From positions 1-40,612 of the forward strand of contig JAFVQM010000027.1 of NCBI GenBank assembly GCA_017504795.1: DNA of 40,612 nt, given 5' to 3'. Under the pieces are notes generated by a model, which had not been told where the DNA came from, ran no database searches, and saw only the letters and a program-made list of their open reading frames with translations. The position numbers were made by a program, and so were the translations under genes. Positions 17,920 through 19,454 of the stretch are shown piece by piece. Origin of the DNA: Clostridia bacterium (GTDB lineage: Bacteria > Bacillota > Clostridia > Christensenellales > Borkfalkiaceae). Position 1 is the stretch's first letter. Each line of letters starts with the position of its first letter.

Positions 17920-18006
17920 GCCGCCGTGGTGAAACTGGCAGACGCACGGGACTCAAAATCCCGCGGTAGCGATACCGTGTCGGTTCGATTCCGACCGGCG
18001 GCACCA
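17920..18006 (+). tRNA. tRNA-Leu (anticodon CAA)
   Basis: A complete class II tRNA of 87 nt with acceptor arms GCCGCCG/CGGCGGC, an anticodon stem GGGA/TCCC with loop CTCAAAA (anticodon CAA, reading UUG), a long variable arm, the GGTTCGATTCC T-arm and an encoded CCA end (18004-18006). It is transcribed opposite to polA and is followed at once by a terminator. Confidence 0.96.
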
Positions 18007-18039
18007 AAAAAAGAACTTTCCGAAGAAAGTTCTTTTTTT
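18007..18039 (+). terminator. Terminator after tRNA-Leu
   Basis: A perfect stem AAAAAAGAACTTTC / GAAAGTTCTTTTTTT around the tetraloop CGAA. Its last bases merge into the first copy of the 143-nt repeat. Confidence 0.92.
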
Positions 18040-18171
18040 ACGTATTTTGCATTTTTGCAAAATATACATAATGCGCTTTGCAAAAGCGTACATCATACCA
18101 CTTGTTAAAGTGGTACAAAAAAATGCAAAACATTATGTGTCCTTACGGACATTATGTATTTTGCTGTCGCA
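18029..18171 (+). repeat. 143-nt hairpin repeat, copy 1
   Basis: Direct repeat of 18613-18755, differing at only 5 of 143 positions. It is a chain of hairpins: ATTTTGCA/TGCAAAAT (18044-18063), CGCTTT/AAAGCG (18074-18088), TACCACTT/AAGTGGTA (18096-18115) and TGTCC/GGACA (18138-18151). ACATAATG (18066-18073) can pair with CATTATGT (18131-18138), which encloses the two middle hairpins as a three-way junction. Open frames that run through both copies give near-identical peptides starting MHFCKIYIMRF, but lack a ribosome binding site and are considered accidental. Confidence 0.9.
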
Positions 18172-18206
18172 AAACATTATGTACTCACTATCGTTCGCAT
18201 TGTTTA

Positions 18207-18235
18207 TTGACAACAAACAAGCAAAATGCTAAAAT
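18207..18235 (+). promoter_or_regulatory. Promoter of the four-helix-bundle gene
   Basis: TTGACA (18207-18212), a 17-nt spacer and TAAAAT (18230-18235). Only 6 nt separate the -10 box from the ATG at 18242, and no ribosome binding site exists, so the transcript should begin at or next to the start codon. Confidence 0.8.
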
Positions 18236-18241
18236 ACTTTT

Positions 18242-18592
18242 ATGAAAAAAGATAAACTTGCTGAACTTTCATTAATATTTACAAATATGTGTATTGAAAT
18301 TTCTAACGAATTAAAATTAAAAAAAGAAATTAGTTTTGCTGACCAAATCAAACGCAGTAGTTCTAGTATTTGTGCAAATTTAGCCGAAGGCTCTCATCCA
18401 CAAAGCAGATTAGATATGATTTCCAAATTTGAAATTGCGCTCAAAGAAGCTTTCGAAAGCGATAGATGGCTACAAATTTTTTATAATTCTAAATTAATAT
18501 CAGAAAACACCTTTAACGATGCAAATAAAATTTGCACAAAGATTAGGATTCTTTTAATTGCGTCAATTAAAACCCTAAAATCAAAGTTATAA
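18242..18592 (+). CDS. Four-helix-bundle protein (IVS / S23-like family)
   Basis: A 116-residue all-helical protein of the four-helix-bundle family (TIGR02436 type) first known from intervening sequences in 23S rRNA genes and related to the Avd accessory protein of diversity-generating retroelements. Recognisable features are the start with EIS-type helix 1, the turn FADQIKRSSSSICANLAEGS, a basic/polar helix 3 with FEIALKEAFESDRWL, and a Lys-rich end. Family members form pentameric rings and may bind nucleic acid; the exact role is unknown. Here the gene is not in an rRNA and no reverse transcriptase is nearby. It has its own strong promoter and terminator and is bracketed by two copies of a 143-nt repeat, which suggests a small mobile cassette. 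Confidence 0.85.
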   Translation: MKKDKLAELSLIFTNMCIEISNELKLKKEISFADQIKRSSSSICANLAEGSHPQSRLDMISKFEIALKEAFESDRWLQIFYNSKLISENTFNDANKICTKIRILLIASIKTLKSKL

Positions 18593-18593
18593 A

Positions 18594-18623
18594 AAAGAAC
18601 GATTTTTTAATCGTTCTTTTTTT
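18594..18623 (+). terminator. Terminator after the four-helix-bundle gene
   Basis: Perfect stem AAAGAACGATT / AATCGTTCTTT with a TTTT loop and seven Ts. The outer arms (AAAAAAGAAC ... GTTCTTTTTTTACG) match those of the tRNA terminator, while the core differs, so the terminator may be part of the repeated module. Confidence 0.92.
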
Positions 18624-18755
18624 ACGTATTTTGCATTTTTGCAAAATATACATAATGCGCTTTGTAAAAGCGTACATCATGCCACTTGTTAAAGTAGTAC
18701 AAAAAAATGCAAAACATTATGTGTCCTTACGGACATTATGTATTTTACGGTCGCA
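18613..18755 (+). repeat. 143-nt hairpin repeat, copy 2
   Basis: Second copy of the 18029-18171 repeat (5 differences). It stops exactly at the last base before the kdpE stop codon (18756), so any insertion has happened at the very end of kdpE. Two differences fall in the TACCACTT hairpin (now TGCCACTT / AAGTAGTA) and weaken it rather than compensating. Confidence 0.9.
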
Positions 18756-19454
18756 TTATTCTACTCTCATCATTCTATACCCAACGCCTATATGCGTTTG
18801 TATATATTGTGGGGTATTTGATTCTATTTCTATCTTTTTTCGTAGCGTTGCCATAAATACACGCAGCGAAGCAACGTTTCTTTCCCAAGCCACACCCCAA
18901 ATCTTTTGAGTTATAAAGGTATGAGTGAGAACCTTTCCTACGTTTTGAGAAAGTAAACACAGTAATTTGTATTCAATAGGTGTTAAATGCAATTCGTTGC
19001 CGTTGATATATGCGCAGCCTGCGGCATAATCAATTTTAAGGTTACCATTTGTAAATAGAGATTCCGATTGTATTGCCGAATGTATAACAGACAATCTTCG
19101 CGTGGTAACACGAATTCTCGCAAGCAATTCTTCCACAGAAAACGGTTTTGTTAAATAGTCGTCAGCACCTGCGTCTAACGCTTCTATTTTATCGTAATCT
19201 TCACTTCTAGCGCTAATAACTATAATCGGCATTTCCGACCAAGTGCGTATCTTTTTAATTACTTCTACCCCGTCAATATCTGGAAGACCTAAATCTAATA
19301 AAACGATATCGGGATTATACGAAGACGCTTGCATTATAGCACTTTCTCCGTTTTGAGCAGTTAAGTATTTGTATTCGTGCGCCTTTAACGTAGTCGTAAT
19401 TAAATTGCGAATAGGCGCGTCGTCTTCAACAATCAATATTAAAGGATTATTCAT
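18756..19454 (-). CDS. kdpE: Response regulator, OmpR family, KdpE-like
   Basis: A 232-residue response regulator: receiver domain (about 3-118) with acidic pair EDD, phospho-acceptor Asp in VLLDLGLPDIDG, and KPF lysine; then an OmpR-type winged helix (about 135-230, with LTPIEYKLLCLL and LRVFMATLRKKIE). The ATG overlaps the kdpD stop by 8 nt (ATGAATAA) with GGGGAG upstream. KdpE normally activates potassium-uptake genes. Here the likely targets are in the same block, ktrB-ktrA, as no kdpFABC genes are present. Confidence 0.92.
   Translation of the reverse strand: MNNPLILIVEDDAPIRNLITTTLKAHEYKYLTAQNGESAIMQASSYNPDIVLLDLGLPDIDGVEVIKKIRTWSEMPIIVISARSEDYDKIEALDAGADDYLTKPFSVEELLARIRVTTRRLSVIHSAIQSESLFTNGNLKIDYAAGCAYINGNELHLTPIEYKLLCLLSQNVGKVLTHTFITQKIWGVAWERNVASLRVFMATLRKKIEIESNTPQYIQTHIGVGYRMMRVE

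Follow-up and report, generated by a model that had tools for sequence, protein, structure and literature searches.

The locus between tRNA-Leu and kdpE

Within the window, i.e., the whole stretch of 40,612 nucleotides that was analysed (Clostridia bacterium, contig JAFVQM010000027.1), a tRNA-Leu gene with the anticodon caa (17920..18006, forward strand, from ARAGORN and the sequence) ends in CCA and appears to be a landing site. The first base after the CCA opens repeat copy R1 (18007..18171, forward strand, delimited by alignment and folds), which comprises a terminator hairpin (18007-18039) and a hairpin array. On the same strand follow the final array portion of the full element (18172..18206, from the sequence), a promoter-like site of the form TTGACA-17 nt-TAAAAT (18207..18235, read by eye from the sequence) and a gene for a four-helix-bundle (FHB) protein (18242..18592, from profile and structure searches). 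The second copy, R2 (18591..18755, forward strand, from alignment), consists of the terminator hairpin and a truncated array; its first two A residues finish the stop codon of the FHB gene, and it is devoid of the final array part, the promoter and the FHB gene. Its 3' edge lies one base before the stop codon (TTA, 18756-18758) of the neighbouring kdpE-like response regulator gene (18756..19454, reverse strand, from profile searches), and this stop codon forms the right junction of R2.

An earlier note on this DNA had described direct repeats of 143 nt with 5 differences, one behind tRNA-Leu and the other at the kdpE stop, around a four-helix-bundle gene with a consensus promoter, and this observation was confirmed. 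The 143-nt repeats (18029-18171 and 18613-18755) are 97% identical, and the unit is longer than described: the register extends to the left over 165 nt without gaps (18007-18171 versus 18591-18755, 15 differences) and starts exactly at the base after the CCA. The 10 added differences all lie in the terminator hairpin, where six of them make up three two-sided base-pair changes and four fall in the loop; three pairs changed on both sides together with a four-base loop form the pattern of a kept hairpin. The folding of 18007-18240 as DNA (z -8.0) and that of 18029-18171 as RNA (z -4.5) were each better than those of 200/200 shuffles. The most plausible view of the repeat pair is that of a complete element and, behind it, a shortened copy without the gene.

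The 3' flank of kdpE differs in the relatives G005 and G031, and because a different sequence lies behind kdpE in these genomes, the right edge of R2 is taken to be a rearrangement junction. The kdpE gene and part of the kinase gene (from window position 18758 onwards) are 87% identical over 1235 nt to G031, which belongs to another genus, while the tRNA/polA side of the window is approx. 67% identical to the same genome; these values point to a possible transfer or rearrangement of the kdp locus. A purely local event has to be weighed at this point, in which recombination between arrays duplicated the repeat and the gene here and the tRNA neighbourhood acts as a recombination hot spot. The tandem 165-nt copies, the synteny break at the kdpE junction and the proximity of several FHB loci to contig ends would fit such amplification, which nonetheless explains neither the boundary at the CCA nor the related elements found at different tRNAs of different genera, and we regard it as very unlikely to be the whole account.

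The FHB protein and its family

The FHB protein of the window (116 aa) matches PF05635 and TIGR02436, belongs to the S23/IVP family and has four helices in its structure model (pLDDT 95.6), with PDB 2rld and 2gsc as its nearest solved structures. Its fold is distantly similar (Foldseek E 0.04) to that of the Avd protein of Bordetella phage (4dwl), and kinship between PF05635 and Avd has already been published (excerpt of PMC10053308). According to the excerpt of PMC4990558, the S23/IVP four-helix-bundle proteins are reportedly without known function, and S23p of Xanthomonas is a pentamer. Out of 297 genomes searched in the order, the Pfam model detected FHB genes in 71, of which 65 exceeded the cut-off. 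Plasmid and phage records yielded distant FHB proteins only (17 and 2 records, all below 60% identity); the unannotated faecal phage records MT835590.1 and MT835815.1 encode an FHB protein with 36-38% identity. On a tree of 234 FHB proteins, the tRNA label changes 26 times and the array label 28 times, values that have no shuffled baseline and are therefore not used as evidence.

The earlier note had also pointed out that genes of this family are known from 23S rRNA intervening sequences and diversity-generating retroelements (DGRs), neither of which is present here. This proved correct: with tRNA-Leu on one side of the locus and kdpE on the other, and with no match to the reverse transcriptase profile RVT_1 in the window genome (83.6% complete), a 23S or DGR context was rejected for the window FHB gene. 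The suggested link to rRNA intervening sequences and Avd holds at the protein level only. In an Rfam search of 14 loci, rRNA was found in L034 alone, where it lies beside the FHB gene and does not surround it.

A hairpin array precedes the FHB gene

After the terminator, the window repeat is composed of short hairpins linked by ACATAATG, and in its second half the same linker occurs in inverted form, CATTATGT. The arrays of relatives use other linkers (ATGATG, TGAAATC, TATGTAATC, GTTATA and AATTCATGA). By eye and by consensus fold, the layout is recurrent: a terminator or leading hairpin, approx. four hairpins, a middle segment with complementarity to the beginning, approx. three hairpins, the promoter and the FHB gene. 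When 201 upstream regions, taken from the sets for the order, for relatives and for GTDB, were scored with hairpin and score cut-offs of our own choosing, the mean number of hairpins upstream of FHB was 3.84, compared with 0.64 after shuffling (ten shuffles each). At least three hairpins were present in 142/201 of these regions vs. 2/28 FHB genes of a sample of the phylum, and at least two linker copies per half in 119/201 vs. 2/28. An alignment of seven arrays contains 53 predicted pairs, 9 of which show a two-sided change in some row; this count omits the alignment of the window's own array (six diverged rows).

The array accompanies 80 of 88 scorable tRNA-linked loci and 56 of 95 loci without a tRNA; the remaining 39 of these 95 are devoid of an array, which counts against the mobile-element reading. 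Two further observations concern the relationship of array and gene. In L073 and L128 (G114 and G268), the locus is the same, the arrays are 91% identical and the flanks can be aligned, whereas the FHB gene lies outside all alignment blocks; this pair looks as though the array evolved separately from the gene. In L109, L431 and L432, which represent a further FHB subfamily, a long inverted leader of the AGATAAGAGATAA type is combined with a AAGCGGCG hairpin, and in L431 and L432 the AAGCGGCG hairpin is repeated after the FHB stop.

Many FHB loci lie behind tRNA and tmRNA genes

The position of FHB loci relative to stable-RNA genes was analysed for 133 loci, 103 of them from the order-wide Pfam search (110 places taken as L062-L171 from the Pfam match list, short fragments and duplicates being left out) and 30 from a protein search of relatives; L077 and L097, which coincide with L057 and L060, were dropped before counting, as were second matches per locus. 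A co-oriented tRNA or tmRNA gene ends within 500 nt upstream of 50 of these 133 loci and an antisense one of 2, while downstream no co-oriented and one antisense tRNA was found. Among 80 named GTDB loci, a set that stems mostly from gut Clostridia of ruminants and other animals and was drawn by motifs from an alignment rich in tRNA-linked members, 44 have a co-oriented upstream gene and none an antisense upstream one or either kind downstream. After merging identical FHB ORFs (4 of 213) and keeping near-identical ones, the pooled set comprises 209 loci, of which 91 have a co-oriented gene within 500 nt upstream and 2 an antisense one, compared with 0 co-oriented and 1 antisense downstream; 19 kinds of RNA are represented. 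The Pfam-drawn order set alone gives 32 tRNA-linked loci out of 97 with at least 500 nt of upstream sequence, and the chance estimate for this set assumes 48 tRNA genes per 1.8 Mb. In the phylum sample, none of the FHB genes is linked to a tRNA (0/30), which counts against the mobile-element reading; the link is thus a property of only part of the FHB family.

In all 72 loci with a tRNA within 300 nt, the 3' terminus of the tRNA gene is CCA, and a stem of at least 9 pairs (one mismatch allowed) lies in the next 60 nt in 63/72, a score that ordinary tRNA terminators would also reach. A duplicated tRNA 3' end occurs in 6 of 50 tRNA-FHB loci vs. 1 of 250 control loci. Five of the six duplicates precede the FHB gene (in L034 one also follows it), and in L087 the duplicate lies solely after the gene. 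Since the five flank another, gene-free unit ahead of FHB, the idea that duplicated tRNA 3' ends are target-site duplications of the FHB element is unsupported. At the window locus, no duplicated tRNA 3' end, which tyrosine-recombinase tRNA islands have at the far border, was found. The gene-free unit is a second hairpin unit of approx. 120-270 nt that lies behind many tRNAs, sometimes in tandem, and is followed by an exact or near-exact copy of the tRNA's own 3' end (approx. 18-23 nt, from the T-loop to CCA, in FHB loci); it was seen in L022, L008, L007, L013, L202, L205, L216 and L377, and before FHB in L034, L106, L125, L129 and L134.

Related elements at different tRNAs and the left boundary

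Among pairs of FHB proteins with at least 70% identity, 326 lie behind different tRNA types and 22 behind the same type. Similar elements follow, for example, tRNA-Leu in L050, tRNA-Pro in L071, tRNA-Arg in L037 and tmRNA in L038; the same applies to tmRNA in L045 and tRNA-Ala in L053, and to tRNA-Arg in L075 and tRNA-Ala in L081. In a single genome, G048, an identical start of terminator and array follows tRNA-Ser(cga) in L378 and the copied 3' end of tRNA-Ser(gct) in L377; in L381, the start behind tRNA-Pro(ggg) is related to it. These starts at several tRNAs indicate that the terminator moves with the array and that the left edge is the CCA. To assess the boundary, elements located at different tRNA types were aligned with each other; of the 91 alignments that reach 400 nt or more, 25 start 3-10 nt before the end of the CCA. 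The other 66 start elsewhere and count against the mobile-element reading: 22 begin within the tRNA, 24-70 nt upstream of its end, in sequence that is similar among tRNAs, 29 begin 23-41 nt downstream of this end, i.e., past the variable arm of the terminator, and 15 later. On the right, 75 of the 91 alignments end within -31..+19 of the FHB stop; the 9 that end 76-123 nt before the stop and the 7 that end 87-639 nt past it count against the reading as well. In L432, the same left end, to the same base, follows the apparent last codons of a protein gene and not a tRNA.

Within the genus of the window, FHB is present in six of nine genomes and absent from three. At the polA/tRNA-Leu site itself, G004 has an array but no FHB gene, and by eye both are absent from G001, while other tRNAs of the genus are empty or are followed by a gene-less array (L212, L225) or an element. 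Stacked elements occur in the window, L161 and L337. This variable occupation supports the small mobile cassette proposed in the earlier note, in which the extent of the repeats, their nature and the reading of the pair had to be corrected. Its author had considered mobility unlikely should all relatives keep the same gene and repeats at this place, with neither empty sites nor other copies, and the relatives present a different picture. The search for repeat and protein proposed there had a divided outcome: in the window genome (83.6% complete), the 143-nt repeat has no copies beyond the two in the window, which counts against the mobile-element reading, and the FHB gene is single-copy, whereas FHB also occurs in relatives. 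A strain-level pair of empty and occupied sites with an exact junction was not found among the genomes compared, and this counts against mobility as well. In L039, the second case with direct repeats, the two flanks do not adjoin each other in the genus's other 8 genomes and no empty site was seen there, and in the genus of G198 the neighbours are too diverged for an exact empty-site junction. It should be noted that these genomes are metagenome assemblies, which are prone to breaks at repeats.

Gene-less arrays and Gut-1 RNA

In 2010, Gut-1 was published as an RNA found solely in human-gut sequences and was judged a likely ncRNA (excerpt of PMC2864571). The Rfam model of Gut-1 (RF01706) has three hairpins and the linker GUGAAAU; in some subfamilies, it can be aligned with the left half of the array. 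The array of the window (L003), in which the linker differs, gave no Gut-1 match up to E 0.5, which counts against the mobile-element reading. Matches of 28.9-43.3 bits, below the gathering threshold of 50 bits, extend over FHB arrays (43.3 bits in L054, 39.3 bits in L051), and other FHB-adjacent arrays score above the threshold, at 53.7-74.2 bits. When the match lists were compared by eye, at least seven loci had above-threshold Gut-1 ahead of FHB at a distance of up to approx. 400 nt (G144, G317, G274, G301, G257, G118 and, on the opposite strand, G268). At the level of genomes, with at most 15 candidates scored per genome, Gut-1 was found in 65 of 297, of which 48 also have FHB (odds ratio 26, p 1e-23, uncorrected for kinship); the search also gave a sub-threshold match in E. 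coli.

The best 30 Gut-1 loci have FHB alongside in four cases, a co-oriented tRNA within 300 nt upstream in ten and a reverse-sense tRNA in one (L182). Gene-less arrays can be numerous: the 13 copies fetched from G244 are similar, dispersed and free of FHB, and no tRNA was found in the fetched stretches, which counts against tRNA targeting; in G048, three of seven fetched array stretches lie behind tRNAs.

These arrays bear on the possibility that the locus is a tRNA-linked regulatory module, in which the array would be a structured ncRNA read through from the tRNA and FHB its RNA-binding partner in tRNA processing or decay. Co-orientation behind both tRNA and tmRNA genes, the conserved structure (two-sided changes in 9 of 53 predicted pairs of the seven arrays) and the judgement of Gut-1 as a likely ncRNA (excerpt of PMC2864571) would all be expected of such a module. 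However, its presence within one genus is patchy, related FHB genes lie behind different tRNAs, a terminator precedes the array, gene-less arrays occur away from tRNAs, and some elements carry passenger genes; taken together, this makes the regulatory explanation unlikely.

Candidate partner enzymes

If FHB elements move, reverse transcriptases and Y1 transposases are candidate partners, and both were rejected in this role because of a lack of co-occurrence in the 297 genomes. Reverse transcriptase is present in 76 genomes and shared with FHB in 21 (17.1 expected, p 0.27), Y1 transposase is present in 109 and shows no link with FHB (p 0.56), and 31 of 67 FHB genomes have neither. No match to PF01797 was found in the window genome, as was the case for RVT_1. 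These figures speak against a SINE-like retroelement, in which array RNA and the Avd-like FHB protein would be reverse transcribed in trans with priming at tRNA 3' ends. The fold similarity of FHB to Avd, the start at the mature CCA end and the duplicated tRNA 3' ends in neighbouring units are compatible with this scenario, which, with reverse transcriptase neither tracking FHB nor matched in the window genome and with nearly half of the FHB genomes containing neither enzyme, seems quite improbable. Five weak PF05635 matches adjoining reverse transcriptases (L166-L170) are Avd-like (DGR) in appearance and fall outside the FHB HMM matches.

Interpretation and proposed mechanism

The reading preferred here, to which we assign a probability of approx. 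0.72, is that the window contains an FHB mobile element flush behind the CCA of tRNA-Leu (18007-18592), followed by a truncated gene-less copy (18591-18755), and that it operates by the mechanism proposed below. Comparison between genomes shows the target, the orientation, the left boundary, the gene-less copies, the passengers and the patchiness of the element. The element could represent a type of mobile DNA not described so far, which resides directly behind the tRNA genes of gut Clostridia with its own hairpin array and an occasional passenger. The element would be ordered as terminator hairpin, hairpin array, promoter and FHB gene, and its own terminator would replace that of the tRNA, so that the site stays harmless. 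The pentameric S23p of Xanthomonas (excerpt of PMC4990558) and the similarity to Avd suggest that FHB is an oligomeric nucleic-acid-binding factor; as a pentamer of the S23/Avd type, it could bind the linker-hairpin array in its folded state, be it DNA or RNA, and guide this array, as well as gene-less arrays in trans, to tRNA 3' ends. Because neither reverse transcriptase nor Y1 transposase tracks FHB, cutting and joining would presumably be performed by a host activity.

By the features tested, the FHB element acts like a RAYT with its REPIN crossed with a tRNA-targeting transposon and would belong to neither. In REP/RAYT systems, mobilisation of gene-less copies in trans has been proposed, and such copies occur in genomes that hold the gene. 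Like REP/REPIN-RAYT (TnpA-REP), the FHB element combines a single gene with hairpins that have a conserved flanking word in inverted halves, and gene-less palindrome copies are dispersed (here in relatives, the window repeat having two copies); it differs in that FHB replaces the Y1 (HUH) transposase and in the tRNA link. With 23S rRNA intervening sequences, which are bordered by complementary sequence (excerpt of PMC4990558), it shares an S23p-type ORF of PF05635, small size, a tie to a stable-RNA gene and complementary borders. However, it lies behind a tRNA or tmRNA, after a terminator, and not within 23S rRNA, and it has a promoter-like site, a linker array, gene-less copies and passengers. 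DGRs are similar in the distant likeness of FHB to Avd but not in the window genome, which has no reverse transcriptase match, and the RT-adjacent matches noticed were the five weak Avd-like ones. Gut-1 RNA, whose three hairpins and linker align to the left array half in some subfamilies, has been described just as an orphan ncRNA and has a linker other than that of the window array.

Flanks of tRNA genes are safe landing places in compact genomes for TRE3 of Dictyostelium and Ty of yeast (excerpt of PMC5006619). The use of tRNA flanks as safe sites is shared with these elements, whereas the FHB element is bacterial, is devoid of retrotransposon proteins and lies flush with the CCA instead of approx. 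100 bp away.

It is conceivable, and put forward here tentatively, that these elements constitute a new class in which an S23/Avd-type pentamer without its own reverse transcriptase or recombinase directs array units, with or without a passenger, to the CCA at tRNA 3' ends, with Gut-1 as the dispersed non-autonomous form and rRNA intervening sequences as an offshoot. If so, S23/IVP proteins and Gut-1 would be parts of one element, the target, cargo and non-autonomous copies of which can be read from genomes, and mobility without a recognisable recombinase or reverse transcriptase (as profiled with RVT_1 and PF01797) would be a new mode of gene transfer in gut Clostridia. It would also be a directly testable system and a bacterial case of the tRNA flanks used as safe landing places in amoebae and yeast. 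In the literature searched, the scope of which left aside subscription papers and nearly all preprints, no title pointing to a tRNA-linked FHB element and no papers with the term 'Gut-1 RNA' were found.

Passenger genes and flanking repeats

Some elements appear to carry a further gene. An ORF of 70 or more codons follows FHB in 145 distinct loci that are linked to an array or a tRNA; it is co-oriented and within 60 nt of FHB in 43 of them and oppositely oriented in 8 (p 7e-7). A Pfam scan covered 40 of the 43, L110, L123 and L293 being omitted as non-coding in appearance. Among the first 25 of 47 families, GNAT acetyltransferase domains occur in four ORFs and methyltransferase domains in two, while NAD synthase, DJ-1/PfpI, glyoxalase, NERD and others occur once each. 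The FHB gene and the next gene can be shared between loci: L050 and L291 (tRNA-Leu and tRNA-Tyr) have 639 nt in common with 83% identity, and L054 and L161 have 461 nt with 76% identity, ending a few bases from the passenger stop. Integron cassettes carry single passenger genes and stack. The FHB element resembles them in its single passengers, which include acetyltransferases and methyltransferases, and in its stacking.

Of 200 loci compared, 18 have direct and 35 inverted repeats around FHB, as against 2 and 2 when the two sides were paired randomly; many of them are arrays, and some are tRNA 3' ends (L034, L358) or simple sequence. In L363, for example, FHB and a methyltransferase gene lie between 147-nt direct repeats with 98% identity. 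The layout of the window thus belongs to a group of arrangements that recur. Tandem FHB genes occur in L245 and L246 (G603 and G589), from other orders of the phylum, with four and three genes, respectively, within approx. 5 kb, and no tRNA was found in the sequence covered.
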